Positions 23,273-62,007 of a DNA stretch of 64,000 nt are shown here, one piece after another. Position numbers and translations under genes: made by a program. The notes under the pieces are model-generated. The model was not told the origin of the DNA. It did not search any database and worked only from the letters and a program-made list of their open reading frames with translations. This DNA comes from Prauserella aidingensis (GTDB lineage: Bacteria; Actinomycetota; Actinomycetes; Mycobacteriales; Pseudonocardiaceae). Location of the stretch: NCBI RefSeq assembly GCF_024171865.1, contig NZ_JAMTCN010000017.1:1-64000 (forward strand), in the 5' to 3' direction. The first letter of the stretch is position 1. Each line of letters begins with the position of its first letter.

Positions 23273-24640
23273 ATGATCGATCTGCGCACGCCGGTGAGCA
23301 CCGAGGACGTCGTCGCCCGCGGAAAGGCGATGCGGGACGCCACCCCACCCACGTCCCACGACCACGACGCGACGAGCCCGCAGCGACCCGACGTGCTCGC
23401 CTACATCGAGGCGAGCAACGCCGGGCGCCTGCCGCACCTGCTGCCGTTGCGGCACGGCCGGATGGCCGCGTCGCCGTTCGCGTTCTACCGCGGCGCCGCC
23501 GGGCTGATGGCCGCCGACCTCGCGGGCACGCCGTCCAGCGGTATGCACGCCCAGCTGTGCGGGGACGCCCACGCGGCGAACTTCGGGCTCTTCGGCACGC
23601 CCGAGGGCGAGATCGTCATGGACATCAACGATTTCGACGAGACCGTGCCGGGCCCGTGGGAGTGGGACCTCAAACGGCTCGCGACGAGCCTCGTGCTCGC
23701 GGGCCGCGAAGGCGACGTGTCGGAGAAGAAGTGCCGCAAGGCGGCCGAGGACGTCGTCAAGTCCTACCGCCGCACGGTGCGCGAGCTCGCCGAGGTGCCG
23801 TTCCTCCGGTCGTGGAACGCGCTGCCGGACTCCTCGGTGGTGGAGAAGGCGAAGGCCGACGAACTGATCGACGACTTCGAGAAGGCCGCGGCGAAGGCGC
23901 GGAAGAACACGAGCGCCAAGATCGCGGCGAAGCGCACCGAGGAGTACTCCCACGCCTCCGGCGACAGCGCGTGGCGCTTCACCGAGGAACCGCCGAAGCG
24001 CACCCGTGTCGACGAGGCCACGGCCGACGCCGTGATCGCTGGGCTGGAGTCCTACGTGGACACGCTCAGGGAGTCGCGCCGCAACCTCATCACGCGCTAC
24101 TCGGTGTCCGATGTGGCCTTCCGCGTCGTCGGCACCGGCAGCGTGGGCCGCCGCGGCTACATCGCGCTGCTGCGCGGCAACGGCGACGAGGCTCTCGTGC
24201 TGCAGCTGAAAGAGGCGTGCCCGTCCGCGTTGGCCGACGTCCTCGATCCCGAACCGTGGGACCACGAGGGACACCGCATCGTCCACGGCGCGCGACTGGT
24301 GCAGGCCGAGACCGACATCCTGCTCGGCTGGACGACGATCGAGGGCAGGCCGTACATCGTCCGCCAGTTCCGCAACATGAAGGGCGACATCGACCCGACC
24401 GGCCTCGACGGCGGACACCTCGACGACTACGGCAGGCTCGCGGGCGCCCTGCTCGCCCGCGCCCACACGCGCTCGCTCGACCCGCGCCTGTTGGCGGGGT
24501 ACTTCGCCGAGGACAGCGACATGGACGAGGCCGTCGGCCGCTACGCGGTGCGCTACGCCGACCGGACCGAGGCCGACCACGCCGAACTGGTCGCCGCGAT
24601 CAAGGCGGGCAAGCTCGAGGCCGAGTTCGAGGAGGACTGA
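23273..24640 (+). CDS. DUF2252 family protein
   Basis: A 455-residue cytoplasmic protein of the DUF2252 family, distantly related to protein-kinase-like/aminoglycoside-phosphotransferase folds. Landmarks are LLPLRHGRMAASPFAFYRGAA, CGDAHAANFGLFGTPEG (kinase-like HGDxHxxN loop), DINDFDET (metal-binding DxND) and FRVVGTGSVGRRGY (Gly-rich loop), with VRQFRNMKGDID near the C-terminus. The domain order differs from classical kinases. Family members have no established substrate. The start is ATG 23273. It is monocistronic and converges on gabD through a 15-bp hairpin. Confidence 0.85.
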   Translation: MIDLRTPVSTEDVVARGKAMRDATPPTSHDHDATSPQRPDVLAYIEASNAGRLPHLLPLRHGRMAASPFAFYRGAAGLMAADLAGTPSSGMHAQLCGDAHAANFGLFGTPEGEIVMDINDFDETVPGPWEWDLKRLATSLVLAGREGDVSEKKCRKAAEDVVKSYRRTVRELAEVPFLRSWNALPDSSVVEKAKADELIDDFEKAAAKARKNTSAKIAAKRTEEYSHASGDSAWRFTEEPPKRTRVDEATADAVIAGLESYVDTLRESRRNLITRYSVSDVAFRVVGTGSVGRRGYIALLRGNGDEALVLQLKEACPSALADVLDPEPWDHEGHRIVHGARLVQAETDILLGWTTIEGRPYIVRQFRNMKGDIDPTGLDGGHLDDYGRLAGALLARAHTRSLDPRLLAGYFAEDSDMDEAVGRYAVRYADRTEADHAELVAAIKAGKLEAEFEED

Positions 24641-24697: not shown

Positions 24698-26134
24698 TCA
24701 GTGCGCGATGCTGACCGAGCGCGTGTTCAGGTAGGCCTCCATCGCCTCCGGACCACCCTCGGTCCCGTAGCCGGAGTCCTTCACGCCGCCGAACGGCAGT
24801 TCCGCGGACGGCATGGCCGGCATGTTGACCCACAGCATGCCCACCTCGACCTTCCGCGTCAGCGTGTCGGCGGCGGCCAGCGACCGGGTGAAGGCGTAGC
24901 CGGCAAGGCCGTACGACAACCGGTTGGCCTCGGTGATCGCCTCGTCGAGGTCGGTGAAGCCGCGGATCGCCGCGACCGGGCCGAACGGCTCCTCGTTGAA
25001 CAGCCGCGCATCGGAGGGGACCTCGTCGAGCACGGTCGGCGCCCAGAAGTTGCCCGCGTCGCCGATCCGCTCACCGCCGGCGAGTGTCGCCGCACCCCGG
25101 CCCACGGCGTCCTCGTGGAGCGAGGCCATGGCGTCGAGACGCCGGCTGTTGGCCAGCGGGCCCATCTCGGTGCCGTCGGCCAGCCCGTCGCCCACCGTCA
25201 CGCCGGTGGCCGATTCCGCCAGCGCCTTGGCGAAGTCGGGGCGCACGGACTCGTGCACCAGGAACCGCGTCGGCGAGATGCACACCTGGCCCGCGTTGCG
25301 GAACTTCGCCTTCGCCATGGTCTTGACCGCGAGCTCCACGTCGGCGTCCTCGCACACGATGACCGGCGCGTGCCCACCCAGCTCCATCGACACGCGCTTC
25401 ATCTGCCGTCCCGCGAGTTCGGCCAGCTGCTTACCGACCGCGGTCGACCCCGTGAAGGTGATCTTGCGGATCGCCGGGTGCGCGATCAGGTACTCGGAGA
25501 TCTCCGCCGGGTCGCCGTAGACGAGCGCGAGGACGCCCGCGGGGAGGCCGGCGTCCTGGAACGCGCTCACCAGCGCCGCCGGGCTGGCAGGAGTCTCCTC
25601 GGGGGCCTTCACGACCATCGAGCACCCGGTGGCCAGGCAGGCACCGAGCTTGCGCACCACCTGGTTGATCGGGAAGTTCCACGGCGTGAAGGCCGCGACC
25701 GGGCCGACCGGGTCCTTCACGACGAGCTGGCGGATCGACGGGTCCGCGCGGTGCGGCACCGTGCGGCCGTAGACGCGCAGTCCCTCGTCGGCGAACCAGT
25801 CGATGATGTCCGCGCCCGCCAGGATCTCGCCCTTGGCCTCGACCAGCGGCTTGCCCTGCTCGCGCGTCATCAGCTCGGCGATCTCACCGACGCGCTCGCG
25901 CACCAGTGCGGCGGCCCGGTGCATGATCGCGGCGCGCTGCGCGGGCGTGTAGTCGCGCCACACCTCGAATCCCCGGCGCACCGAGTCGGCGGCGGCGTCG
26001 AGGTCACGGCGCGAGGCGTGCGCCACACCGCCGATCACCTCGCCGGTCGCGGGGTTGTGGACGTCGATCCGGCGACCGTCCTCCGCATCCCTCCAGTCGT
26101 CGTCGATGAAGAGCCGGGTGTCCGGATAGGTCAT
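24698..26134 (-). CDS. gabD: NAD(P)-dependent succinate-semialdehyde dehydrogenase
   Basis: A 478-residue aldehyde dehydrogenase that oxidises succinate semialdehyde to succinate, the last step of GABA breakdown. It shows [50 protein letters not shown] (catalytic Glu), [14 protein letters not shown] (catalytic Cys about residue 283) and [14 protein letters not shown] near the end, closest to the GabD/ALDH5 subgroup. The start is ATG 26134 behind AAGGAGG. It could feed on GABA made by the guanidino locus at 51-57 kb, although no GABA aminotransferase gene lies in the window. Confidence 0.85.
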
Positions 26135-48049: not shown

Positions 48050-49186
48050 CTACGCCGCCGCGGGCAGGCGGACGGTGACGGCCAGGCCGCCGCCCACGAC
48101 CGGTTCGGCGGAGACCGACCCCTCGTGCGCCTCCGCGGCCGCCCGCACGATCGACAGGCCGAGGCCCGCACCGTGCCGCGCCGTCCTGGCCACGCCCGCG
48201 CGACGGAACGGTTCGAACAGTCCCGCCACCGTTTCCGGATCCAGCAGCTGCCCGGACGAGCGCACCGTCAGCGTCGTCCACCGGTCCCCTGCGGTGGTGG
48301 TGACCTCGATCCAACCGGCGTCGACGTTGTGGCGCACGGCGTTCTCCAGCAGGTTTCCCGCCACGCGTTCCAGCAGCGCCCCGTCGCCGGTCGTCAACGC
48401 CGGGGCCAGCCGTAGGTCGACGTTCAGCTCGCGGCGCCGTGCGTCGGGTTCGACGACCTGCCACGCCCGGCCCGCGACGTCGGCCACGTTGACCCGCTCG
48501 GTCAGTGCGATCCCGGCACCGTCGGTGCGGGCGAGCAGCAGCAGCGACGTCACGAGCCGTTCGGCACGTTCGGTGGCGTCGCGCACGACGCCGGCCATGC
48601 GGCGCAGTTCGGCCTCGTCGGCATCCTCGTCGGGCAGCGTGACATCGAGTTCCGTGCGGATGACGGCCAGTGGCGTGCGCAGCTCGTGGCTCGCGTTGGC
48701 CACGAACTGCCGCTGCGTGTCGAACGCCGACTGAAGCCGGTCCAGCATCGCGTCGATCGTGCGCGCCAACTCGGCGAGTTCGTCCCGTGTGGACACGTCG
48801 CCGATGCGCTCCCCCATCGACTCGCCGGAGAGCCGCTGCGCCGTGCCCGTGATGTCCCGGAGCGGCTGCAACACCCGCGAGGTGAACGTCCACGCGAGAA
48901 TGCCCGCCGCGGCGACCACGAAGCAGAACGCGATGCCCCCGGCGACCACGACCCGTTCGCGCGCCGCGTCGCGCAGGTGCTCGGCCAGGTCCTCGGCCTT
49001 GACGTGCACGCCGTCGACCTCGACGACCGTTCCCGGCGGCAGCTGCGGCACGCCGCCCACCGCGTCGCCGACGAGCGTCCAGGCCAGCCACAGCAGCAGC
49101 GCGCTGACGGCCGCGACGAGCGCCGTCGCGAGAATGGTGATGCGGGCGCGCAGGCTGCGCGCCGGAATACCCGTACGCCGGATCAC
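48050..49186 (-). CDS. sensor histidine kinase
   Basis: A 378-residue kinase with two membrane helices (about 14-36 and 81-103) enclosing a short extracytoplasmic loop of about 45 residues (VPQLPPGTVVEVDGVHVK). After that come a HAMP domain (RVLQPLRDITGTAQRLSGE), HisKA with FVANASHELRTPLAVI (phospho-His) and a HATPase domain (NLLENAVRHN, GAGLGLSIVRAAAEAH). The short sensor loop suggests detection at or in the membrane. GTG 49186 directly follows the response-regulator stop, so the two are co-translated. Confidence 0.92.
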   Translation of the reverse strand: MIRRTGIPARSLRARITILATALVAAVSALLLWLAWTLVGDAVGGVPQLPPGTVVEVDGVHVKAEDLAEHLRDAARERVVVAGGIAFCFVVAAAGILAWTFTSRVLQPLRDITGTAQRLSGESMGERIGDVSTRDELAELARTIDAMLDRLQSAFDTQRQFVANASHELRTPLAVIRTELDVTLPDEDADEAELRRMAGVVRDATERAERLVTSLLLLARTDGAGIALTERVNVADVAGRAWQVVEPDARRRELNVDLRLAPALTTGDGALLERVAGNLLENAVRHNVDAGWIEVTTTAGDRWTTLTVRSSGQLLDPETVAGLFEPFRRAGVARTARHGAGLGLSIVRAAAEAHEGSVSAEPVVGGGLAVTVRLPAAA

Positions 49187-49936
49187 TTACGTCAGGGAAC
49201 CGGACTCCGAGGATCCGCGCGCACCCGGGGTACCGCCGGCCTCCTCCGCGGCGTCCTCCGTGGACCCCGCGCCGGGCACGCGGTAGCCCGAGCCGACGAC
49301 CGTCTCGATCACACCGGGTTCGCCGAGCTTCTTCCGCAGGGTCATCACGGTGACGCGCACCGTCGTGGTGAACGGGTCGGCGTTCTCGTCCCACACGCGT
49401 TCGAGCAGGTCCTCACTGCTGACGACGGCACCGCCCGCGGACAACAGCACCTCGAGGACGCCGAACTCCTTGCGGGTCAGGTCCACGGGCTCGCCGCCGC
49501 GATGCACCGTCCGGCGCGACGGGTCGAGCTCGATGTCGCCCGCGGTCAGCACCGGCGGTGCGGCGGGCGTGGCACGCCTGCCCAGCGCCCTGACGCGCGC
49601 CACCAGCTCGGGAAACGCGAACGGCTTCGCCACGTAGTCGTCGGCGCCGAGTGAGAGCCCTTCGACCCGCTCGGAGACCGCGGTGCTGGCCGTCAGCATC
49701 AGCACCCTGGTCAGCTCGCCGGAACGCACGATCTCGCGGCACAGTTCGTCGCCCGGCATCCCGGGCAGGTCGCGGTCGAGCACCACGACGTCGTACCGCG
49801 TCACCGACGCCTTCTCGTGTCCGTCGTCGCCGTCCAGCGCGACGTCCACGGCCATACCTTCGCGACGCAGACCCCGTGCGATCGCCTCCGCGAGCGGGGC
49901 CTCGTCCTCAACTACCAACACGCGCACGTCACCCAC
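49187..49936 (-). CDS. response regulator, OmpR/PhoB type
   Basis: A 249-residue regulator. The receiver domain has VRVLVVEDEAPLAEAIARGL, VVVLDRDLPGMPGD (phospho-Asp), LMLTAST and DDYVAKPFAFPELVARVRAL; the winged-helix domain has LTRKEFGVLEVLLSAGG and VTVMTLRKKLGEPGVIETV...GYRVPG. The start is GTG 49936 (GTG 49927 is also possible). It pairs with the adjacent kinase. The C69-like dipeptidase downstream is a plausible target or operon partner by position only. Confidence 0.92.
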   Translation of the reverse strand: MGDVRVLVVEDEAPLAEAIARGLRREGMAVDVALDGDDGHEKASVTRYDVVVLDRDLPGMPGDELCREIVRSGELTRVLMLTASTAVSERVEGLSLGADDYVAKPFAFPELVARVRALGRRATPAAPPVLTAGDIELDPSRRTVHRGGEPVDLTRKEFGVLEVLLSAGGAVVSSEDLLERVWDENADPFTTTVRVTVMTLRKKLGEPGVIETVVGSGYRVPGAGSTEDAAEEAGGTPGARGSSESGSLT

Positions 49937-49998
49937 GGTGACACAGAAAGCTGAGAAGCACCTATGTGAACCCGCTGTTCGCATCGGCCCCGGGGCCC

Positions 49999-51507
49999 TC
50001 AGGATGTGTCCCAGCGCAGCGCGAACCACAGTCGCATCCGGACGTCCGGGTCGGTCAGATCGAGCCCGAGCGCGCGTTCGGCCTGCCGGATCCGGTGCCG
50101 CACGCTGTTGCGGTGCACGCCGAGTGCCGCCGCCGTCCGATCCCAGCCGCCGTGGCATGCCAACCAGGTGTGCAGGGTGTCGAGCAGGGAACCGGCACCG
50201 CGGTCGCGCAGCGGCGCAAGCAGCCGGCGTGCGAACTCGGCCGCGGCCTCGTGCGACACGACACCGGCGAGCCCGTCCTCAACACCTGCCTCGCCGCCGG
50301 CGACGACCGGCTCCCCACGCGCCCGAGCCCTCGCGAGCAGCGACGCCACCTCCGCATCGGCGTGCGGGAGCCGGTCGGCGGGCAGCGGGCCGGTCACGGC
50401 GACGAGCCAGCCGCCCGCCCCGAGCGCGTCGAGGACGTCGCGGCCGGGTACGACGGTGCAGACGGCCGTGAACCGCCGTCCCTCCAGCCGCACGAGCGGG
50501 GTCGCGAGCCCGGCCCGTAACCGGCCGAGTTCGATGTCCACAGCCTCCTCCCCGCCGCCGTCGGCGGCCCCCTGCAGGCGTTCCCCGGCCACGATGCGGT
50601 AGTCGCCGGACGGAAGCAGACCGGTCAGCACATCCGTGGGCGTCGCTCCGCGCAGCAGCGCGGTGACCGCGGCCCCGAGCCTGCCCGCGCCGGCCCCGGC
50701 CCCGGTGGCGATGCCGAGCAACGCTGCCCCGGCGGCCATGATCGCCCGGTCGGTGGTGGAGAGCCGGGCCGCACGTCCCACCACGAGCAGGTACGGAGCG
50801 CTGGCCTGCGGCGAGACCGGCTGTGCCACGACCACCGTGCCGTCGGCAAGCTCCGTAGTCGCACTGCGGATACCCTGGCCCGCCCGGAGCCGGGCAAGCA
50901 TGTCCCGCACCCGGCGCGGCAGCGGCCGCGGCGCCCGGCGTTCGGCGACGGGCTCGTCGGTGGCGCCGACCAGTGCCACCCACGCCGAGAGCCTGCCGGC
51001 GAGCTCCCTGGTGACCTCCCCCAGTTCGCCCGTCGCGGCCCTGGTCAGCGCCTCACGGGCCTCGTCGACGCGATGTTGCTCGTGCCTGCGCGCCTCGTCG
51101 AGGGTGAGCGAGACGGCGCGGCTGACCGCGATGAACGGCGTCTGCGGTGGCACGACCAGCAACGGCAGGCGGTGGCGGGCGCAGGCGTGCCGCAACCGGG
51201 GCGGGAGCGAGGAATGCAGCGGCGGGGTCACCCCGAATCCGAGCGCGGTGACACCCGCTCCGGCGATACCCCGCACGTAGGCGTCGACGGCCTCCCGGCC
51301 CGGCGCCAGGTTGACGCCCGCACTCAACAACAACTCCTGGCCCGTCAGGTACGGCGCGGGATCGTGCAGCTCGCTGACGTGTGCCCAGCGCACGGGTTCG
51401 TCGAGGGCACCGGGAGGCACCGTCTCGGGCACCAGCTCGAGTGCCAGTTCCGAGTGCTCGGCGACCGCTCGTAACGGCACCGACACATCGTTGTTCACAT
51501 CATCCAT
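49999..51507 (-). CDS. PucR-family transcriptional regulator
   Basis: A 502-residue activator. The N-terminal PucR domain (about 10-120) has PVRWAHVSELHDPAPYLTGQELLLSAG and LGFGVTPPLHSSLPP; a GGDEF-like/CdaR middle follows, and the C-terminal HTH_30 (about 440-500) has LLDTLHTWLACHGGWDRTAAALGVHRNSVRHRIRQAE written here in its key parts: WDRTAAALGVHRNSVRHRI. PucR-type regulators usually activate nitrogen-compound catabolism (purines, GABA, amines). It is divergent from the symporter-ureohydrolase operon, 89 bp away, with a palindrome between, so it is the likely regulator. The start is ATG 51507. Confidence 0.85.
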   Translation of the reverse strand: MDDVNNDVSVPLRAVAEHSELALELVPETVPPGALDEPVRWAHVSELHDPAPYLTGQELLLSAGVNLAPGREAVDAYVRGIAGAGVTALGFGVTPPLHSSLPPRLRHACARHRLPLLVVPPQTPFIAVSRAVSLTLDEARRHEQHRVDEAREALTRAATGELGEVTRELAGRLSAWVALVGATDEPVAERRAPRPLPRRVRDMLARLRAGQGIRSATTELADGTVVVAQPVSPQASAPYLLVVGRAARLSTTDRAIMAAGAALLGIATGAGAGAGRLGAAVTALLRGATPTDVLTGLLPSGDYRIVAGERLQGAADGGGEEAVDIELGRLRAGLATPLVRLEGRRFTAVCTVVPGRDVLDALGAGGWLVAVTGPLPADRLPHADAEVASLLARARARGEPVVAGGEAGVEDGLAGVVSHEAAAEFARRLLAPLRDRGAGSLLDTLHTWLACHGGWDRTAAALGVHRNSVRHRIRQAERALGLDLTDPDVRMRLWFALRWDTS

Positions 51508-51521
51508 GATTGGCCGCCTTT

Positions 51522-51538
51522 TGGGATGGATCATCCCA
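51522..51538. promoter_or_regulatory. candidate PucR operator
   Basis: TGGGATG-GAT-CATCCCA is a perfect 7-bp inverted repeat with a 3-bp spacer, located 15 bp upstream of the PucR ATG and 59 bp upstream of the symporter start in the shared 89-bp region. Confidence 0.6.
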
Positions 51539-51596
51539 TTCAATCACTCTCGGCGCAGGCCTACGGTTGCCGAAATCCGACGAGAAGGAGGCAGCT

Positions 51597-53036
51597 GTGG
51601 CCGGTGACTACACGGTGATCGCGCTCTACATCGCCACCATGATCGGGATCGGCTGGTACAGCCTGCGCCTGGCGAGAACACGTAACGACTACCTCGTCGC
51701 CGGGCGCAGGCTCGGCGGGTTCATGTACGCGGGCACGATGTCGGCCGTCGTGTTGGGCGGGGCCTCCACGATCGGCGGCGTCGGGTTGGGCTACACCCAC
51801 GGCGTCTCGGGTGCCTGGCTCGTGCTCACCATCGGCCTGGGCATCCTCGTGCTGCACGCGGTGTTCGCCAGACGGCTCGTGCGCCTGCGCATCACCACGG
51901 TCTCGGAGCTGCTCGACCTCCGCTACGGCGGCAGAACGAGCGCCATCTCCGGCGTGGTGATGTGGGGCTACACGCTGATGCTGACCGTGACGTCGACGCT
52001 GGCGTTCGCGACGATCTTCAGTGTCCTTTACGGACTGCCCACCGCGGTGTCGGTGGTGATCGGCGGTGGCATCGTCGTCACCTACGCGGCGCTGGGCGGC
52101 ATGTGGTCGATCACGCTCACCGATCTTGCGCAGTTCCTCGTCATGACCGTCGGATTCCTCCTGATCCTGCTGCCGGTCGCCCTCGGCGAGACCGGCGGAT
52201 TCGCGGGGTTGTCGGAGAAGCTGGACGCGAGCTTCTTCTCGTTCGGCTCCATCGGTGCCGGCACGATCGTCACCTACGTGCTGATCTACGGGTTCGGACT
52301 GCTCATCGGCCAGGACATCTGGCAGCGCGTGTTCACCGCGCGCAGCCCACGTGTGTCCACCTACGGTGGCATCGGAGCCGCGGTGTACTGCGCGCTGTAC
52401 GCGCTGGCGGGTGCAGTCATCGGCATGGCCGCGAAGTCGCTGTACCCCGACCTCGACAACGCGGACGACGCGTTCGCCACGAACGTGCGCGACCTGCTGC
52501 CGTCCGGTCTGCGGGGGCTCGTGCTGGCCGCAGCACTGTCGGCACTCATGTCGACGGCGAGCGGTGCGCTCATCGCGTGTTCCACGGTCAGCACCAACGA
52601 CATCCTGCCAAGGCTGCTGCGCCGCGAGCTCCGCGGCGGTGTGGGTGCCAACCGGATCACCACCCTCGTGCTGGGCCTGGTCGCCATCGCCATGGCGATG
52701 ATCGTCACCGACGTCGTCGCGGCCCTGACTGTGGCCTACAACATCCTGGTCGGAGGCCTGCTCGTGGCGATCCTCGGCGGGCTGCTGTGGCGGCGCGGCA
52801 CGCGTGCGGGCGCGCTCGCCTCGATGATCACCGGTTCCGTCGTCGTGGTCGTGTCCATGATCACCGAGGGACTGCTGGCCAACGAGCCGATCTACTACGG
52901 ACTGGGCGCGAGCCTGGTCGTCTACGTCGTGGTCGGTCTGGCCACGCCCCGCACGCCCGAGTCCGTGATGGCCGCGTGGGACCGGCGTGTCTCGGGCGCC
53001 GAACCGGAACCGGAGACCGCAGGCCGGGACTCGTGA
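51597..53036 (+). CDS. sodium:solute symporter (SSS family)
   Basis: A 479-residue membrane transporter with about 13 helices: VIALYIATMIGIGWYSLRLA, RTRNDYLVAGRRLGGFMYAG, ASTIGGVGLGYTHGVSGAWL, ITTVSELLDLRYG, YAALGGMWSITLTDLAQFLVM, GLRGLVLAAALSALMSTASGAL (the Na+-site helix with STASG). The substrate cannot be read from sequence; context suggests a guanidino or amino compound. The start is GTG 51597 after AAGGAGG. It is the first gene of the operon with the ureohydrolase, TPP enzyme and aldehyde dehydrogenase. Confidence 0.88.
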   Translation: MAGDYTVIALYIATMIGIGWYSLRLARTRNDYLVAGRRLGGFMYAGTMSAVVLGGASTIGGVGLGYTHGVSGAWLVLTIGLGILVLHAVFARRLVRLRITTVSELLDLRYGGRTSAISGVVMWGYTLMLTVTSTLAFATIFSVLYGLPTAVSVVIGGGIVVTYAALGGMWSITLTDLAQFLVMTVGFLLILLPVALGETGGFAGLSEKLDASFFSFGSIGAGTIVTYVLIYGFGLLIGQDIWQRVFTARSPRVSTYGGIGAAVYCALYALAGAVIGMAAKSLYPDLDNADDAFATNVRDLLPSGLRGLVLAAALSALMSTASGALIACSTVSTNDILPRLLRRELRGGVGANRITTLVLGLVAIAMAMIVTDVVAALTVAYNILVGGLLVAILGGLLWRRGTRAGALASMITGSVVVVVSMITEGLLANEPIYYGLGASLVVYVVVGLATPRTPESVMAAWDRRVSGAEPEPETAGRDS

Positions 53037-53087
53037 GTGCCCGCGGGACGCTCACGAGCAGCTCATCGAGAACAAGGAGTGCGTGTT

Positions 53088-54032
53088 TTGCCTGTACCAC
53101 CCGTTGACTCGTCGCAGGTACCGCGGTTCGCGGGCTTCGCGACCTTCGCCAGACTGCCCCGCCTCGACGAGGTGTCGCGCGCCGACATCGCCGTCGTCGG
53201 GGTCCCGTTCGACGCCGGTGTGTCGTACCGGCCCGGCGCGCGGTTCGGGCCCGCGGGCGTCCGGGAGGCGAGCAGGCTCCTCCGGCCGTACCACCCGGGG
53301 CTCGACGTCTCGCCGTTCGCGTCGCGGCAGGTGGCCGACGCGGGCGACATCGCGCTGAACCCGTTCGACATCGGCGAGGCCATCGCGACGCTGCAGGACG
53401 CCGCGCGCGACTTCGGCCGCGGCGGCACCCGGTTGGTGACCGTGGGCGGCGACCACACGATCGCGTTGCCGCTGCTGCGTGCGGCCGCCGCCGAGCACGG
53501 ACCCGTCGCGCTGCTGCACTTCGACGCCCACCTGGACACATGGGACACGTACTTCGGCGAGCCGTACACCCACGGCACACCGTTCCGCCGCGCGTCCGAG
53601 GAGGGCGTGCTCGACACGAGCGCACTGTGCCACGTCGGCACCCGCGGGCCGCTGTACGGCAAGGCGGACCTCAGCGAGGACGAACGTCTCGGCTTCGGCA
53701 TCGTGACGTCGGCGGACGTGCTGCACCGCGGCGTGCCGGAGACGGTGGCCGCACTGCGCGAACGCATCGGCGACCGGCCGCTGTACGTCTCGGTCGACAT
53801 CGACGTGCTCGACCCCGCGCACGCACCGGGCACCGGAACCCCGGAGGCGGGCGGCATGACCAGCCGCGAGCTGCTGGAGATCCTGCGAGGCCTGCGGGAT
53901 CTCCACCTGGTGGGTGCGGACGTCGTCGAGGTCGCACCGGCCTACGACCACGCCGAGATCACGGCGATCGCCGCCTCGCACGTGGCCTACGATCTCGTGA
54001 GCCTGCTCGCGCTGTGCGAGGAACCGGCATGA
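53088..54032 (+). CDS. ureohydrolase (agmatinase / guanidinobutyrase family)
   Basis: A 314-residue Mn2+-dependent ureohydrolase that releases urea from a guanidino compound. All metal ligands are present: GGDHTIALP (His), HFDAHLDTW (Asp, His, Asp) and [14 protein letters not shown] with TPEAGG (two Asp). It is closer in motif style to agmatinase/guanidinobutyrase (SpeB, GbuA) than to arginase. The start is TTG 53088 with AAGGAG 8 nt upstream; a GTG at 53037 lacks a site. Its neighbours (TPP decarboxylase-like enzyme, aldehyde dehydrogenase) favour 4-guanidinobutyrate as substrate, giving GABA plus urea, but agmatine is not excluded. Its stop overlaps the next gene. Confidence 0.88.
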
Positions 54033-55657
54033 CACGCATCGGCGGTGACCTCGTCGTCGAGACTCTCCGGGCGCTCGGCATGGACACGGTGTTCGGACTG
54101 CCCGGCCAGCACGCGCTCGGCATCTTCGACGCGTTGCGCCGCGCGCCCGACCTGCGCGTCGTCGGTGCCCGGGTCGAGAACAACCTCGCGTTCGCCGCGG
54201 ACGGGCACGCGCGCGTGACCGGTCGGGTCACCCCCATGGTCGTGTCCACGGGCCCGGGCGCGCTGCTGACGCTGTCGTCGCTGCAGGAGTCTCGGGCGGC
54301 CTCGGTGCCGGTACTGGGCATCGGCAGCCAGGTGCCGCTCGCCGGGATGGACGGCGGCCACCACGGGTACCTGCACGAGCTGCCCGACCAGCAGGCCTCG
54401 TTCCGCGGGATCGTCAAGTCGGTGCACGTCGCGCGCACCGCGTCACAGATTCCCTCGGCGCTGCGGGAGGCGTGGGCCTCGGCGGCCACCGCGCCGCGGG
54501 GTCCGGTGTGGGTGGAGATCCCCCAGGACGTCCTCATGGCACCCGCGGAGTTGCCGCCGGTCACGACGGCGGGTGTGCGTGTGCCGGAGCTCGAGCCCTC
54601 ACCGGAGCTGCTCGACACCGCCGCGGAGCTGCTGGCGGCCGCGACCGACCCGGTGATCCTCGCGGGCGGGGGTGTCGTGCGCGCGGAGGCCCACGAGGAC
54701 CTGCGCGCGCTCGCGGAGGCACTGCGGGCACCGGTGCTCACGACGTTCGGCGGCAAGGGCGCGTTCGGCTGGCAGCACCCGTTGTCCGGGCAGTCGTGGC
54801 TGGAGGACCGCCATGCCACGGAGTTCCTGGAGAGCGCGGACGTGCTGCTCGTCGTCGGTTCCGGCCTCGGTGAGCTGTCCAGCAACTATCACACGCTCGC
54901 CCCGCGCGGACGGATCGTGCAGGTCGAGGCCGATGCGGGCACACTCGGCGCCAACCACCCGGTGCTCGGCATCCACGGCGACGCGCGGGCGGCGCTGGTG
55001 GGCCTTGCCGCACGCGTGCCCCGCCGGGAACCCGACGGCCGCGCCGAGGCCGCCGTCACCGATCTCGTCGCACGGGTCCGGGAACGCCTCGACGGCCAGG
55101 ACCTCGCACGGGAACGACAGGTGCTCGCGGACGTCCGGGCGGCAGTGGCCGGGGCGGGCGAGGACACGCCGAGCTTCTGGGACATGACGATTCTCGGCTA
55201 TTGGGCCTGGTCGGCGTGGAACCCGGACGGCGCGCCGATCCACACGGCCCAGGGCGCGGGTGGGCTGGGTTTCGGCCTTCCCGCGGCGCTCGGCGCCGCG
55301 GCCGCGACGGGTGGTCCGGTCCTGGCGGTCTCCGGCGACGGCGGCGCCATGTACGGCGTGGCCGAGTTGGCCACGGCCGCCCAGCACGGCCTCGACGTGA
55401 CGTGGCTCGTCGTCGACGACGGCGGCTACGGCATCCTCCGCGAGTACCAGACCGGCGCGTTCGGTGAGACGACCGCGACCGAGCTCGCCCGTCCCGACTT
55501 CGCCGCGCTGGCACGCTCGTTCGGCGTTCCCGCAACGGTGTCCACCGTGGACACACTCCGCGACGACCTGACCGAGGCGCTGCGCTCGCCGGGGCCACGG
55601 GTCGTGGTGCTGCCGGCGGTACTGCGCCTGTTCGAACCGACCCACCTGGAGTCCTGA
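54029..55657 (+). CDS. ThDP-dependent enzyme, acetolactate-synthase-like (candidate 2-ketoarginine decarboxylase, AruI-like)
   Basis: A 542-residue thiamine-diphosphate enzyme with the three-domain ALS/decarboxylase layout. The PYR domain has [15 protein letters not shown] and [16 protein letters not shown] (activating Glu50), the central domain has [18 protein letters not shown] and [11 protein letters not shown], and the PP domain has [19 protein letters not shown] and [12 protein letters not shown] (GDGG..DDGG Mg-ThDP motif). True acetolactate synthases need a regulatory subunit and an FAD site; no ilvN is nearby. P. aeruginosa AruI, an ALS-like 2-ketoarginine decarboxylase, works with a guanidinobutyraldehyde dehydrogenase and guanidinobutyrase; the same gene types surround this one. 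ATG 54029 overlaps the ureohydrolase stop. Confidence 0.75.
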
Positions 55658-55658
55658 C

Positions 55659-57053
55659 GTGCTCACCAACTTCGTCGCGGGCGAACGCACCGCGGGTCAC
55701 GACGCGACACTCGACCTCGTCGATCCCGGCACCGGCGAGGTCAGCGGCCACACCGTGAACTCGGACGCCGCGGCCGTCGACGTCGCCATGACGGCCGCGG
55801 CCACGGCATTCCGCACGTGGCGCCGCACCACACCTGCCGAACGCCAGCGAGCCCTCCTCGCCCTGGCCGACGCACTCGAAACGCGGGCAGGGGAGTTCGC
55901 CGACGCGGAGGTTCGCGAGACGGGTAAGCCACGTGCCGTGGTGCTCGACGAGGAGATCCCCGAGTCGGTGAGCGCGCTGCGGTTCTTCGCGGGCGCCGCA
56001 CGCGTGCTCGAGGGCACGGCCGCCGCCGAGTACACGCCTGGCCACACGTCGTTCGTCCGCCGCGAACCGGTGGGGGTGTGCGCCCAGATCGCGCCGTGGA
56101 ACTACCCGCTGATGATGGCGGTGTGGAAGATCGCGCCCGCGCTCGCCGCAGGCAACGCGGTCGTGCTCAAACCCGCCGAGACCACACCCAGCACCGCGGT
56201 GCTGCTCGCCGAGGCCGCGGCGGAGCACCTGCCCGCGGGCGTGTTCAACGTGGTCCTCGGCGACCGGGACACCGGCAGGGCACTCGTGGCACACCCGGCG
56301 ACCGAGCTGGTGTCGATCACCGGCTCCACGCGCGCCGGCATCGACGTGGCCACCACGGCCGCTGCCGACCTCACGCGCACGCACCTCGAACTCGGTGGCA
56401 ACGCACCGCTGCTGGTCTTCGACGACGTCGACGTCACCGCGGCCGCCGAGCGCATCGCGGCCGCCGCGTTCTACAACGCGGGCCAGGATTGCACGGCGGG
56501 CAGCCGGGTGATCGCCCACGAGTCGGTCCACGACGACCTCGTCGCCGCCCTCACCGACGTCGCCGAGCGCACCCGCGCCGGTGTCGACTTCGGACCGCTC
56601 AACAGCGCCGCCCAACTGGCCAGGGTCGAACGCCTCGTCGAAGGGCTCGCCCGCCACGCCGAGATCCGGACCGGCGCCGCGCGCGTCGGTGAGCGCGGGT
56701 TCTTCTTCTCCCCCACCGTGATCGCGAACGTCGGCCAGGAGGACGAGATCGTGCAGGAGGAGATCTTCGCACCGGTGATCACGGTGCAGCGCTTCACCGA
56801 CGAGGCCCACGGAATCGCCCTGGCCAACGGCGTCCGGTACGGACTGGCCTCGTCGGTGTGGACGCGCGACCACGCTCGCGCGATGCGCGTGTCGGCCGAG
56901 CTCGACTTCGGCTGCGTGTGGCTCAACACCCACGGCCCACTGGTACCGGAGATGCCGCACGGCGGGTTCGGCCGCTCCGGGCACGGCAAGGACCTCTCGG
57001 CCTACTCGCTCGCCGACTACACCCGCATCAAGCACGTCATGAGCCACCTCTGA
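55659..57053 (+). CDS. aldehyde dehydrogenase (gamma-aminobutyraldehyde / 4-guanidinobutyraldehyde type)
   Basis: A 464-residue NAD(P)-dependent aldehyde dehydrogenase: GVCAQIAPWNYPLMMAVWKIA, SITGSTRAGIDVA, HLELGGNAPLLVFDDVD (catalytic Glu about 244), FYNAGQDCTAGSRVI (catalytic Cys about 278) and EEIFAPVITVQRF. The NAGQDCTA motif is like E. coli PatD (gamma-aminobutyraldehyde dehydrogenase); KauB of Pseudomonas has the analogous role on 4-guanidinobutyraldehyde. The start is GTG 55659, right after the TPP-enzyme stop. It is the last gene of the operon and converges on dxs through a nested hairpin. Confidence 0.85.
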   Translation: MLTNFVAGERTAGHDATLDLVDPGTGEVSGHTVNSDAAAVDVAMTAAATAFRTWRRTTPAERQRALLALADALETRAGEFADAEVRETGKPRAVVLDEEIPESVSALRFFAGAARVLEGTAAAEYTPGHTSFVRREPVGVCAQIAPWNYPLMMAVWKIAPALAAGNAVVLKPAETTPSTAVLLAEAAAEHLPAGVFNVVLGDRDTGRALVAHPATELVSITGSTRAGIDVATTAAADLTRTHLELGGNAPLLVFDDVDVTAAAERIAAAAFYNAGQDCTAGSRVIAHESVHDDLVAALTDVAERTRAGVDFGPLNSAAQLARVERLVEGLARHAEIRTGAARVGERGFFFSPTVIANVGQEDEIVQEEIFAPVITVQRFTDEAHGIALANGVRYGLASSVWTRDHARAMRVSAELDFGCVWLNTHGPLVPEMPHGGFGRSGHGKDLSAYSLADYTRIKHVMSHL

Positions 57054-57140: not shown

Positions 57141-59057
57141 TCAGGCGCGGGGTGTCGGATCCGCCTCGGCGTCGTCGCGGGAATCGCCGATGCGGCCTGC
57201 GGCCCACTCGGTGACGGTGCGGGCCACGTCCTGTGCCGTCAGCCCGACGTCGGCGAGCACCTCGTCGCGCGATCCGTGCGCGTGGAAGGCCTGCGGCACG
57301 GCCAGGTCGCGCAGCGGCACGTCGCAGTCGGCGTCCCGCAGCGCGGCCGCGAGTGCCGACCCGACACCGCCGTGCCGCCCGCTGTCCTCCACGGTGACGA
57401 CCAGCCGGTGCCTGCGCGCCAGCGCGGCGAGCTCGCCGGGCACCGGGACGACCCACCGCGGGTCCACGACGGTGACGCCGATGCCCTGGTCGGCCAGGCG
57501 GTCCGCGGCCTCGAGCCCCAGGCCCGCGAACGCGCCCACCGACACCAGCAGCACGTCTTCGCGTTCGCTGCGGCGCAGCACGTCGACGGTGCCGAACCGC
57601 TCGGCCGCGGGCACCGACTCGACCACGCCGCCCTTGGAGAACCGTAGCGCCGTCGGCCCGTCGGACACGGCGACCGCCTCGCGCAGCTCCTCGCGCAGCG
57701 TGTCGGCGTCGCGCGGCGCGGCGACCCGCATGCCCGGCACCATGCCCAGCAGGGACAGGTCCCACATGCCGTGGTGGCTGGGCCCGTCGGGGCCGGTCAC
57801 GCCGGCGCGGTCGAGAACCAGCGTCACGGGCAGCCGGTGCAGCGCGACGTCCATCAGTGTCTGGTCGAACGCCCGGTTGAGGAACGTCGAGTACACGGCC
57901 ACGACCGGATGCCGCCCGTCCATCGCCAGCCCGGCGGCCGACGTGACCGCGTGCTGCTCGGCGATGCCGACGTCGAACCACCGGTCCGGGTGGGCCTCCG
58001 CGAACGTGTGCAGCCCCGTCGAGCGCAGCATGGCGGCCGTGACGGCCACGACGTCCTCGCGCTCGCCGCCGAGCCGGGTCAGCTCCTCGCCGAACACCGA
58101 CGTCCAGCTCGGACCCTTCGCGGGCGGCAGCCCGGTCTCCGGGTCGATCGGGTCGGTCTGGTGCATCTGGTCGGCCTCGTGGTTGACGGCCGGTTCGTAG
58201 CCGTGCCCCTTCTCCGTGGCGACGTGCACGATCACGGGGCCGCCGAACGTCTTCGCGCTCTGCAGAGCCTTCTCGAGCGCGACGACGTCGTGGCCGTCCA
58301 CCGGGCCGAGGTACTTGAGCCCCAGGTCGGAGAACATGACCTGCGGGGTGAAGGCGTCCTTGATGCCCGCCTTCGCGGCGTGCAACGCGGTGTAGATCGG
58401 CTTGCCGACCACGGGGGTGTGCTGCAGCAGTTCGCGGCCGCCGTCGAGAATGCGCTCGTACCCGGGGCGCAGCCGCAGCGCGGAGAGGTGTTCGGCGATC
58501 CCGCCGATGGTCGGCGAGTACGACCGGCCGTTGTCGTTGACGACGATCACCACGGGCAGGTCCGGCTGCGCGGCGATGTTGTTGAGCGCCTCCCAGCACA
58601 TGCCGCCGGTCAGCGCACCGTCGCCGACGACCGCGACCGCGTGGCGGTCGGTGTCACCGGCCAGCCGGAAGGACTTGGCCAGCCCGTCGGCGTACGACAG
58701 CGCCGTGGAGGCGTGGCTGTTCTCGATGTGGTCGTGCTCGCTCTCGTCCCGCGCCGGGTAGCCCGAGAGGCCGCCACGGCGCCGCAGACCGTCGAACTCG
58801 CCCGCGCGCCCGGTGACGATCTTGTGCACGTACGACTGGTGGCCGACGTCGAACAGCAGCGGGTCGCGCGGCGAGTCGAACACGCGGTGCAGCGCGAGCG
58901 TCAGCTCGACGACACCGAGGTTCGGACCCAGGTGCCCGCCGGTGCGGCGAACGTTGTCGACGAGGAACGTCCTGATCTCCTCCGCCAGGGCGCCGACCTG
59001 CTCGTGGTCCATCGCCTTGAGATCCGCCGGCCCGTGCACGGACTCCAGCAACGTCAC
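57141..59057 (-). CDS. dxs: 1-deoxy-D-xylulose-5-phosphate synthase
   Basis: A 638-residue ThDP enzyme that condenses pyruvate and glyceraldehyde-3-phosphate, the first step of the MEP isoprenoid pathway. It has [77 protein letters not shown] (ThDP motif), [18 protein letters not shown] and [23 protein letters not shown] prefer GTG 59057 ([16 protein letters not shown]), which has GAGG 6 nt upstream; ATG 59069 would add four residues. The C-terminal 20 residues are a variable acidic tail. Confidence 0.94.
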
Positions 59058-59097
59058 TCTCCACCTCATTCGCCGTCGGTTCCCGATGCCTGACCGC

Positions 59098-59820
59098 TCA
59101 GTCTAGAGAGGGATCGTCGGCCCCGAGCGGTGCCATGGCGTCGCGCACCTCGCCGAGCAGGTCGCGCATCGCCTCCTCCGCTCTGCGGTACTCCCCCGCG
59201 GAGACCGCCGCCGCGACGTTCTCGTGGGCGTCCAGCGCCTCGGGCACCGGCTGCTGCGGCATCAGTCCGAGGCGGGTCCTGCCCCGCAGCACGACGGCGA
59301 CGACGTCGGCCAGCGCGGCGAACATCTCGTTGCCGCTGGCCTCGAGCAGCAACGTGTGGAAGGCGATGTCGGCGTCCAGGAAGTCCGCCAGCAGGCCGCG
59401 TTCGCCGAGGCCCCGCAGCCGCGCGCCGAGTTCGACGATGCGGGTGCGCTGTTCGGCCGAGGCGTAGTAGGCCGCCGCGCCCGCGGCGAGGGGTTCGACG
59501 GCGATGCGGAGTTCGGTGAGCGAGCGGAGCTGGGCGTCGCGTCCGCTGCCGGCGAGCCGCCACCAGATCACCCTGGGATCGAAGACGTTCCACGATGTGG
59601 CGTCCTGGACGGTGATGCCGACCCTGCGGCGGGAGGTGACGAGCCCCATGGATTCGAGGATGCGCATCGTCTCCCTGGCGACGGTCCGCGAGACGCCGAA
59701 CCGCTCCTGGATTCCTTCGAGGGTCAGCGTGTCCCCCGGCGCGAGCTCGCCCTCGGTGATCTCGCGCCCGATGGCCTCCAGTACCGCGCCGTGCCTGCTC
59801 TCGAACCCCGCCCTGCTCAC
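59098..59820 (-). CDS. GntR/FadR-family regulator of the gluconate module
   Basis: A 240-residue FadR-subfamily GntR regulator: N-terminal winged HTH ([37 protein letters not shown]) shown by its core [17 protein letters not shown], and an all-helical FCD effector domain ([55 protein letters not shown]) with the metal-binding Asp/His residues. It is divergent from gluconokinase and the GntP permease, so it is probably their gluconate-responsive repressor. The start is GTG 59820; TAGCCT (59834-59829) ends 8 nt upstream (leaderless). Confidence 0.85.
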
Positions 59821-59934
59821 GACCGTCCAGGCTAGCCGTGGCAGGCGGGTCGTGGGGGCGACCCGCCGCGACGGCGGTCACCGTCACACCCGTGGCGGCC
59901 GTCGCGGAGGGCGGTCACGACCCCGAATCCGCAA

Positions 59935-59990
59935 TGGTGTTACCTTTCGATCCCAAACGTAGTATCTTTCAGCGCGACACGGCGCCCCGT
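59935..59990 (+). promoter_or_regulatory. gntK promoter region, candidate GntR site
   Basis: TAGTAT at 59960-59965 is the best -10 hexamer in the divergent region. CTTTC words at 59944-59948 and 59966-59970 flank it with AAACG between; ATACTACGT (minus strand) overlaps the -10. The area is AT-richer than its surroundings. No long perfect palindrome is present, so the operator is only a guess. Confidence 0.4.
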
Positions 59991-60030
59991 CCGCGGGGCA
60001 CACGCCGCGCACGTTCACCGAGGAGCGCCC

Positions 60031-60582
60031 ATGCCAGCCACCTGTCTCGTGGTGATGGGAGTGTCCGGCGCGGGCAAGAGCACGATCGCCGCTCGCCTCG
60101 CCGACGAGCTCGGCTGGCCCATGGCCGAGGCCGACGAGTTCCATCCCGAGGCCAACATCGCCAAGATGTCGGCAGGCACTCCCCTGACCGACGCGGACCG
60201 CATGCCGTGGCTCGAGGCGCTGCGGGCGTGGGTCGACCGCCGTGCCGACGCGGGCGAGAGCGTCGTCGTGACGTGCTCGGCCCTCAAGCGGACCTACCGC
60301 GACGTCCTCCGGGGCTCGGTGTCCCGGGTGCGGTTCGTCCACCTGCGCGGTTCGGTCGACACGGTGGGCGGACGACTCTCCGGCCGCTCCGGCCACTTCA
60401 TGCCGCCCGCGCTCCTGGAATCCCAGTTCGCCGATCTGGAACCCCTCGGTGAGGACGAGGACGGCGTGGCACTCGACGTGTCCGCCGATCCGGACGCGAT
60501 CACCGACGCCGCGCTGGACCGTCTCGGGCTCCGGTCCGGCGGCTCCGCCGAACCGGAGTCGGACCCGAACGCGCCACGCTGA
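60031..60582 (+). CDS. gntK: gluconokinase
   Basis: A 183-residue GntK-type kinase that phosphorylates gluconate to 6-phosphogluconate, feeding the pentose phosphate pathway. It has the P-loop VMGVSGAGKSTIAARLA (about residues 8-20), the family's EADEFHPEANIAKMSAGTPL substrate loop, VVVTCSALKRTYRDVLRG and VRFVHLRGS with the LSGRSGHFMPPALLESQF lid. An acidic/Pro tail of 20 residues follows the core. The start is ATG 60031 behind GAGGAG. It precedes the permease by 36 bp and is divergent from the GntR gene. Confidence 0.93.
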   Translation: MPATCLVVMGVSGAGKSTIAARLADELGWPMAEADEFHPEANIAKMSAGTPLTDADRMPWLEALRAWVDRRADAGESVVVTCSALKRTYRDVLRGSVSRVRFVHLRGSVDTVGGRLSGRSGHFMPPALLESQFADLEPLGEDEDGVALDVSADPDAITDAALDRLGLRSGGSAEPESDPNAPR

Positions 60583-60618
60583 AGCAACGACGACAACGAC
60601 GTCGGAAACGGAGCCGGT

Positions 60619-62007
60619 ATGAACACCGACGAGTGGACCCAGACCCTGGGAGCAGGGCCACTACTGGGCATAGCCGGGGCCGCGGTGGCGGTCCTGCTGG
60701 TACTGATCATCGGGCTGCGCGTGCACGCCTTCCTCGCCCTGGTCGCGGTCAGCATCGCCACGGCCTTCGCGGCGGGCATCCCCGCGGGCTCGGTCATGGA
60801 CACCCTGACCGACGGCTTCGGCTCGACACTCGCGAGCGTGGCGCTGCTGGTCGGCCTCGGCGCGATGCTCGGCAGACTGCTCGAGATCAGCGGCGGTGCC
60901 CAGTCGCTGACCGACGCGATGATCCGGCGGTTCGGCGAGAAACGCGCCCCGCTGGCGCTCGGCGTCGCCTCCCTGATCTTCGGGTTCCCGATCTTCTTCG
61001 ACGCGGGACTCGTCGTCATGCTGCCGATCGTGTTCTCCGTGGCACGGCGGCTCGGCGGCGGTGTGCTGCGCTACGGCCTGCCCGTGGCCGGTGCGTTCTC
61101 GGTCATGCACATCTACGTGCCGCCGCACCCCGGACCGGTCGCCGCGAGCGGACTGCTCGGCGCCGACGTCGGCCTCGTGCTGCTGTTCGGCCTGATCATC
61201 GCGGTGCCGACCTGGTACATCACCAGCTACCTGTACGGCGTCATGGTCGGCAAGCGAATCGCCCTGCCCGTGCCGGAGATCCTCCGCGGCGGATCCGACT
61301 CCGCAGAGCAGGACGAGAACCCGCCCGCGGCCTCCACGGTCATCGGCCTGCTGCTCATCCCGCTGCTGATGATCTTCGCCAACACCGGACTCGACACCGC
61401 GGGCGAGGCCGGCTGGATCGACGGCGACGCGAGCTGGGCGCAGGTCGCGTCGGTGATCGGCTCGACGCCGGTCGCACTGCTGGTGACCGTGTTCGTCGCG
61501 AGCTACGTGCTCGGCACCCGCCGCGACCGCAGCCGCGGCGTCATCGAGCGGTTGCTGGACTCCTCGCTCGGCCCCGTGTGCGCCATCATCCTCATCACCG
61601 GCGCCGGCGGCATGTTCGGCGCGGTGCTGCAGGCCAGCGGCATCGGTGACGCACTCGCCGACGCGCTGTCGGGCATCGGCATGCCGGTGTTCGTGGCCGC
61701 CTACGTCATCGCCGCGGTCCTGCGCATCGCCCAGGGTTCGGCCACGGTCGCCCTCACGACGGCGGCCGGCCTGGTGCAGCCGCTGGTGATGACGGGATCG
61801 TTCTCGAGCGTCGAGGTCGTGGCGATCGTGCTGGCGCTCGCCGCCGGTTCGGTGACGGCCAGCCATGTCAACGACTCGGGTTTCTGGCTGGTCGGCCGGT
61901 TCTTCGAAATGGACACCAAGACGACGCTCAAGACCTGGACGGTCATGGAGACCACGATCGGTCTCGTCGGTTTCGGCCTCGCGGGCGTGCTCTTCCTCGT
62001 CGGCTAG
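60619..62007 (+). CDS. gluconate:H+ symporter (GntP family)
   Basis: A 462-residue inner-membrane permease with about 12-14 helices: LLGIAGAAVAVLLVLIIGL, TLTDGFGSTLASVALLVGLGAMLG, GVASLIFGFPIFFDAGLVVMLP (GntP family hallmark FGFPIFFDAG), FSVMHIYVPPHPGPVAASG and GSVTASHVNDSGFWLVGRFF. It transports gluconate or a related sugar acid for GntK. The start is ATG 60619 with CGGAG upstream. A perfect 15-bp terminator follows it. Confidence 0.92.
   Translation: MNTDEWTQTLGAGPLLGIAGAAVAVLLVLIIGLRVHAFLALVAVSIATAFAAGIPAGSVMDTLTDGFGSTLASVALLVGLGAMLGRLLEISGGAQSLTDAMIRRFGEKRAPLALGVASLIFGFPIFFDAGLVVMLPIVFSVARRLGGGVLRYGLPVAGAFSVMHIYVPPHPGPVAASGLLGADVGLVLLFGLIIAVPTWYITSYLYGVMVGKRIALPVPEILRGGSDSAEQDENPPAASTVIGLLLIPLLMIFANTGLDTAGEAGWIDGDASWAQVASVIGSTPVALLVTVFVASYVLGTRRDRSRGVIERLLDSSLGPVCAIILITGAGGMFGAVLQASGIGDALADALSGIGMPVFVAAYVIAAVLRIAQGSATVALTTAAGLVQPLVMTGSFSSVEVVAIVLALAAGSVTASHVNDSGFWLVGRFFEMDTKTTLKTWTVMETTIGLVGFGLAGVLFLVG

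Follow-up and report, generated by a model that had tools for sequence, protein, structure and literature searches.

The 64,000-nucleotide stretch of Prauserella aidingensis DNA analyzed here (assembly GCF_024171865.1, contig NZ_JAMTCN010000017.1, positions 1 to 64,000; hereafter the window) contains a gene cluster in which a PucR-type regulator is divergent from genes for an SSS-family symporter, a Mn-type ureohydrolase, a thiamine diphosphate (ThDP)-dependent enzyme, and an aldehyde dehydrogenase. This operon is real and conserved, and it likely serves a guanidino-acid pathway. In its most specific form, to which we give a chance just short of even, the proposal is that the operon, under the control of PucR, breaks down a guanidino 2-oxo acid taken up from outside, 2-ketoarginine (5-guanidino-2-oxopentanoate) being the likeliest one. 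All of the substrates and the sequence of the steps are what we infer from the genes, their families, their conserved linkage, the residues they keep, and the relationships of the transporter, which can be read directly from the genomes compared. Among the matches listed in the openly licensed PMC literature, no description of the actinomycete cluster was found.

The linkage was followed by protein searches, with the own genome counted in each sample of ThDP matches. The ThDP enzyme occurs in 24 of 120 genomes of the family (E≤1e-100) and in 47 of 394 genomes of the class (E≤1e-120), while the four further members of the genus sampled within the family gave no match at E≤1e-100. The ureohydrolase, searched at E≤1e-120 in the same draw of 394 genomes, is found in 121, including all 47 that bear the ThDP enzyme (Fisher p 4e-28, kinship ignored), and 44 of the 48 ThDP copies have it within 4 kb, start to start. 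Fifty-five relative loci were then compared (all 23 relatives from the family search and 32 of the 47 places outside the window from the class search), counting partners within 6.5 kb of the ThDP gene: the ureohydrolase is present at 49, the symporter at 44, PucR at 42, a PatD-like aldehyde dehydrogenase at 22, and an NCS1-type permease at 14, and the complete five-gene set at 18. The ureohydrolase and ThDP genes form the core, transporter and PucR are common companions, and the aldehyde dehydrogenase is optional; the five-gene arrangement exceeds chance. At two loci of the family sample, PucR, symporter, and ThDP genes stand together, with a 66% identical ureohydrolase elsewhere in the genome. 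Conversely, 20 class ureohydrolase places were chosen near the top of the match list and not beside a listed ThDP match; one lies in a genome with a ThDP gene elsewhere and one adjoins a 50%-identical ThDP stretch, and an NCS1-type permease is found at six and a PatD-like aldehyde dehydrogenase (56-66% identity) at three.

Two plasmids carry the cluster in unusual forms. A 55-kb Arthrobacter plasmid (NZ_AP024658) has two ThDP genes with the same protein accession together with second symporter and ureohydrolase stretches, which looks like a recent duplication. On an Embleya plasmid (NZ_CP108785), PucR and the ThDP gene have no neighboring ureohydrolase match and are accompanied by an NCS1 permease, an amino acid permease, and a creatininase-family gene; a 72.6% identical ureohydrolase lies about 480 kb away in the same record.

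In the window, the five genes described in the initial annotation are present and tightly packed, with some of their starts moved (Table 1). All five proteins, translated from the corrected starts, exceed their Pfam gathering scores. The divergent PucR and symporter genes are separated by 89 nt and the symporter and ureohydrolase genes by 51 nt, the ureohydrolase and ThDP genes overlap by 4 nt, and a 1-nt gap precedes the aldehyde dehydrogenase gene.

Table 1. Genes and candidate regulatory site of the cluster (positions in the window)
Feature	Positions	Strand	Remarks
PucR-type regulator (PucR N-terminal domain and HTH_30)	49999-51507	-	ATG start; Pfam PF07905 82 bits, PF13556 77.5 bits, both over cut-off
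Perfect 7+3+7 palindrome TGGGATG-GAT-CATCCCA, candidate PucR operator	51522-51538		PucR/symporter spacer
SSS-family symporter, gbu/gpu-linked type	51597-53036	+	GTG start; Pfam SSF 125.1 vs 22.8
Mn-type ureohydrolase, probable guanidino-acid hydrolase (automatic label agmatinase)	53088-54032	+	TTG start; Pfam Arginase
ThDP-dependent enzyme, probable 2-oxo-acid decarboxylase	54029-55657	+	ATG start; Pfam TPP N/M/C
Aldehyde dehydrogenase, aminobutyraldehyde dehydrogenase (PatD) subfamily	55659-57053	+	GTG start; Pfam Aldedh

The symporter, which reaches the Pfam model and not TIGR00813 (135.1 vs a cut-off of 184), provides a tie to guanidino compounds. A search with GbuA, from which 80 loci were kept (none of P. 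aeruginosa), led to three Pseudomonas genomes, those of P. otitidis, P. nitroreducens, and P. protegens. They hold four close relatives of the symporter (481-494 bits, 53-54% identity; next match 98 bits), three of them in gbuA loci and one encoded by a gene overlapping that of a GpuA-like ureohydrolase (L253). The latter ureohydrolase groups with GpuA at 100/99 and has Tyr at the specificity position, so that the locus resembles the window in joining an SSS gene to one for a Tyr-bearing ureohydrolase; unlike the window, it has no ThDP or aldehyde dehydrogenase match and shows, by eye, a LysR-looking open reading frame (ORF). The gene type seen there may be gpuP, which a table in PMC8264665 labels '3-guanidinopropionate transport protein'. 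This type of symporter is associated with guanidino acids, and the window protein is the probable importer of one. The earlier idea of a guanidino-acid catabolic operon is upheld.

In P. otitidis and P. nitroreducens, gbuA is followed by an NCS1-type permease (confirmed by Pfam in P. otitidis), an SSS symporter of that same type, and a ThDP gene scoring above the cut-off of NF005712, the model for 5-guanidino-2-oxopentanoate decarboxylase (AruI), so that the set exists in a second phylum as well, next to a gene with a PDB relative that bears the name guanidinobutyrase. In P. protegens the symporter follows gbuA, with no ThDP match within the 21-kb locus. The statement of the initial annotation that Pseudomonas uses unlinked genes is therefore partly wrong, two of the three genomes having symporter and ThDP genes at the gbuA locus. 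These gbuA loci resemble the window in having symporter (53% identity), ureohydrolase (43%), and ThDP enzyme (33%) close together, and their NCS1 permease recurs near the ThDP gene in the actinomycete loci counted above. They differ in that a LysR-looking ORF (by eye) takes the place of PucR, no aldehyde dehydrogenase match lies at the loci examined, the ThDP enzyme is of the NF005712 family, and GbuA has Met161.

The ureohydrolase finds its best PDB matches in GbuA (3nio) and GpuA (3nip), with PAH third. Positions R72, H129, D152, H154, D156, and D243 of GbuA are kept in the window protein and in all 75 relatives' sequences (drawn from 81 loci, six of which gave none; paralogues and loci without a ThDP gene are included). 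The R72 position, suggested from modeling in PMC9772407 to contact the substrate carboxylate, is Ala in SpeB and BtAGM. In the adjoining column the window protein has Pro, as GbuA does, where BtAGM has Glu and SpeB has Trp68, a residue of the neighboring subunit that is described in PMC8125230 as serving the substrate amine and as not conserved among agmatinases. At the M161 position of GbuA, Tyr is found in the window protein and in 73 of the 75 sequences (Ile in two distant paralogues), matching Tyr157 in the specificity loop of GpuA. This Tyr, and a symporter of the very type that overlaps the gpuA-like gene, would suit a shorter guanidino acid, with 3-guanidinopropionate or the 2-oxo acid of norarginine being converted to beta-alanine and urea. 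We consider such a substrate very unlikely: the ureohydrolase does not cluster with GpuA in the tree, 3-guanidinopropionate itself would presumably need neither a ThDP enzyme nor an aldehyde dehydrogenase, and Tyr is also reported at this position in the Aspergillus niger guanidinobutyrase and is thus not exclusive to GpuA (PMC10833137). On balance the protein is probably, though far from certainly, a guanidino-acid hydrolase rather than an agmatinase. The own genome holds a second ureohydrolase (C8:104299-105222, L055:7728-8735), 61-63% identical and with the same Arg and Tyr, which adjoins an ABC-transporter gene (its ATPase part nearest to amino-acid importers) and, by eye, a LysR-looking ORF.

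The ThDP enzyme is probably a 2-oxo-acid decarboxylase of an uncharacterized clade. In a 44-row tree, a second ThDP protein of the own genome (L254:2088-3731, contig C11; 38% identical; 376.8 bits with NF005712, under the cut-off) is sister to the window clade at 98/94. Next to join are the Pseudomonas AruI-type and gbu-linked enzymes and one Aminobacter protein (87/77), where AruI-type denotes proteins over the NF005712 cut-off whose genes lie beside an aminotransferase-looking ORF, the type to which PA4977 presumably belongs. The P. otitidis AruI-type protein scores 782.5 bits with this model and the gbu-linked protein 864.3, both over the cut-off. E. coli IlvB, IlvI, Gcl, PoxB, and Oxc fall outside this grouping, at a weak split (69/75). 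The clustering with oxalyl-CoA decarboxylase, glyoxylate carboligase, or acetolactate synthase that would have told against the initial annotation was hence not seen, although the separation has weak support at both forks. The window protein scores 237 bits with the acetolactate synthase model TIGR00118 (cut-off 538.35) and 363 with an NCBIfam subfamily of hypothetical proteins (cut-off 571).

The window enzyme shares with the AruI-type proteins an L-H motif, embedded in a ten-residue stretch, that reads GYLHELPDQ in the gbu-linked and CLHETQDQ in the AruI-type protein of P. otitidis, where IlvB and IlvI have FQE; this LHE/LHQ His motif was noticed in the present analysis and is not a published criterion. 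Conserved in all 59 loci examined for ThDP residues, that of the window among them, are the catalytic Glu50, His116, Asp463-Asp464, Tyr473, and the initial two residues of GDG; His116 is followed by Glu in 48 and Gln in 11. The Asp-Asp pair is replaced by Asn-Asn in 15 of 16 aligned rows outside the window clade and L185. The RFDDR motif of IlvB, IlvI, and the own synthase-like protein L178 is absent, a ten-residue stretch of another kind standing there, and the window enzyme has EYQ where IlvI and L178 have QWQ and IlvB has QQQ. By tree, cut-offs, and motifs, acetolactate synthase, glyoxylate carboligase, oxalyl-CoA decarboxylase, and pyruvate oxidase were set aside as functions of the ThDP enzyme, with weak support at the deep forks. 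An AlphaFold2 model (predicted local distance difference test score, pLDDT, 83.7; predicted template modeling score 0.86) is confident as a whole but weak at residues 101-120 around the L-H motif (pLDDT about 56-58). A fold search with it gave acetolactate synthases as best matches, with cyclohexane-1,2-dione hydrolase also among the matches listed; the predicted acetolactate-synthase-like fold does not discriminate between the candidate functions.

A pairing of ThDP enzyme and ureohydrolase is also found on a Streptomyces clavuligerus plasmid, where a ThDP gene, an asparagine-synthase-related gene, and an agmatinase-annotated ureohydrolase gene lie in a row (L227:3412-8056). We take these to be clavam genes, presumably CeaS1 and PAH1 among them, and regard the row as a distant parallel. 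By this analogy, and with PAH third in the PDB list, the window enzyme would be a carboligase working with its ureohydrolase as CeaS does with PAH in clavam biosynthesis. That is extremely unlikely, given that the L227 ThDP protein is 27% identical and sits on a very long branch, that none of the five genes resembles a beta-lactam synthetase gene, and that importer and dehydrogenase point to catabolism.

The aldehyde dehydrogenase exceeds the cut-off of the PatD subfamily model NF010000 (645.8 vs 615 bits), as the only one of 27 matches to this model in the own genome, and stays below that of the equivalog TIGR03374 (507 vs 909.3). In the preferred scheme, the SSS symporter would import the guanidino 2-oxo acid, likely 2-ketoarginine, the ThDP enzyme would decarboxylate it to 4-guanidinobutyraldehyde and carbon dioxide, the PatD-like dehydrogenase would oxidize the aldehyde to 4-guanidinobutyrate, and the ureohydrolase would split the latter into 4-aminobutyrate (GABA) and urea. 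GABA may then leave by way of genes of the GabT and succinate-semialdehyde dehydrogenase (SSADH) types, and urea by urease, for which the own genome has a match of 885.8 bits (cut-off 680). The gene at 24698-26134, called GabD in the initial annotation, does encode an SSADH-like dehydrogenase, yet one under the curated cut-off (462.2 vs 646.35). It lies about 24-28 kb from the operon together with an ornithine aminotransferase gene (21926-23182; TIGR01885 479.9 vs 378.4) and, between the two, a DUF2252 gene (23273-24640).

The same three reaction types make up the arginine transaminase (2-ketoarginine) pathway of P. aeruginosa, which comprises AruH, AruI, KauB, and GbuA; the window operon differs in having a ThDP enzyme of another clade and a PatD-type dehydrogenase. 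At loci L222 and L223, an AruI-type gene stands beside an aminotransferase-looking ORF (by eye), whereas the window operon has none and instead brings its own importer. The most economical interpretation of this arrangement is that a ready-made 2-oxo acid is imported. When the neighboring ORFs of the 59 loci were clustered, no aminotransferase or amino-acid oxidase was recognized by eye among the 60 most widespread families, most of which were not searched against a library; the simple ORF caller used missed the ThDP ORF at 5 of the 59 loci. At one relative locus an amidase gene adjoins PucR, and a second has a similar-looking ORF.

The three steps may also run in another order. The ureohydrolase would then free urea from 2-ketoarginine, the ThDP enzyme would form 4-aminobutyraldehyde from 5-amino-2-oxopentanoate, and the dehydrogenase would deliver GABA directly. 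A PatD-type dehydrogenase fits either order, with 4-aminobutyraldehyde being an equally natural substrate for it, and the gene order (ureohydrolase, ThDP enzyme, aldehyde dehydrogenase) matches this sequence of events, weak evidence though gene order is. In Sinorhizobium meliloti, PMC7268258 gives 5-guanidino-2-oxopentanoate, 4-guanidinobutyraldehyde, and 4-guanidinobutanoate as substrates of SpeB2 and a sevenfold preference for 5-amino-2-oxopentanoate for the AruI homologue IlvB1, so that more than one sequence of the three steps is possible. The network described there likewise leads from arginine to GABA by a transaminase, an AruI-homologous decarboxylase, a guanidino ureohydrolase, and dehydrogenases in alternative orders; it is redundant and comprises at least 16 enzymes, unlike the compact window operon (PMC7268258). 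On the other side stand two family genomes, G083 and G105, that keep the ThDP enzyme, in G083 with an adjoining aldehyde dehydrogenase, and have no ureohydrolase match at E≤1e-30; decarboxylation and oxidation ahead of urea release would suit them, which mildly favors the first order. We judge urea release as the opening step to be somewhat unlikely.

Several observations count against the 2-ketoarginine proposal. The ThDP enzyme scores 300 bits with NF005712, against a cut-off of 500, shares 29-33% identity with the AruI-type and related Pseudomonas enzymes, and belongs to a separate clade of 19 rows (100/100). The two genomes without a ureohydrolase match weaken strict coupling of the two enzymes, 74 class genomes have the ureohydrolase without the ThDP enzyme, so that the dependence is one-sided, and the S. 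meliloti specificities fit the other order. The five genes include no arginine transaminase or oxidase, the top match in the own genome to an AruH-like protein of Pseudomonas shares 34% identity with it, and the own-genome matches to GABA transaminase stay under the cut-off (384 vs 506.65). The ureohydrolase is 42-45% identical to GbuA, GpuA, PAH, BtAGM, and SpeB alike; it exceeds the cut-offs of the agmatinase models TIGR01230 (231.2 vs 174.3) and NF002564 (310.5 vs 302), its tree inclines to placing the window set with the agmatinases SpeB and BtAGM (94/85, long branches) and does not put it with GbuA, and a 13-residue stretch is agmatinase-like, its EITA being shared with agmatinases.

These last features, and clusters of ureohydrolase, NCS1 permease, and aldehyde dehydrogenase without a ThDP gene (three loci), are what an agmatine or polyamine operon would show, in which a true agmatinase acts together with a dehydrogenase for putrescine-derived 4-aminobutyraldehyde, and the ThDP enzyme in a side reaction. 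Such an operon seems unlikely to us in view of the conserved Arg72 and the neighboring Pro, the symporter type shared with the gbu and gpu loci, and the absence from the five-gene set of any aminotransferase or oxidase for putrescine; moreover, ThDP enzymes are not known to take part in the breakdown of agmatine. The chain from 2-ketoarginine to GABA set out in the initial annotation is no more than plausible: the ThDP enzyme falls under the NF005712 cut-off, the step at which the ureohydrolase acts may be a different one, and the dehydrogenase is of the PatD type.

The palindrome between PucR and the operon, which is new here, is a candidate PucR operator. Within 3 mismatches in its 14 paired positions, it recurs in 11 of 21 spacers of relatives (family loci with PucR and symporter), where 300 mononucleotide shuffles gave a mean of 0.08 and a largest value of 2, the relatedness of the spacers being ignored. 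The other 10 spacers, from more distant relatives, show 4-7 mismatches. Across the window, a search with up to 3 mismatches gave one match, the perfect one, against 1.87 expected, so that the support for the palindrome comes from its conservation, which is supportive and not conclusive, as the relatives are kin.

Beyond the aldehyde dehydrogenase gene, the window continues with what we take to be a DXS-like gene, a GntR/FCD regulator, a small kinase-like gene, and a GntP permease (57141-62007); the DXS-like gene is near the ThDP gene at 7 of the 59 loci. On the far side of PucR, two ORFs (48050-50158) look by eye like a two-component pair and have matches in the same place in four relatives.

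If the proposal is right, it would supply a testable gene set for the use of arginine-derived keto acids across actinomycetes, name a symporter type and a probable operator, and suggest that a large group of actinomycete 'agmatinases' are guanidino-acid hydrolases. We add more tentatively, and at a chance clearly below even, that the ThDP clade may be a decarboxylase family not described before, acting on guanidino or amino 2-oxo acids and having Asp-Asp where the cofactor motif usually has Asn-Asn, and that together with the misnamed 'agmatinase' and PucR it may provide many actinomycetes with a dedicated means of scavenging 2-ketoarginine that others make or release. The finding would fill an annotation gap in a known type of pathway rather than introduce a new principle, and its most interesting part is the uncharacterized decarboxylase clade.

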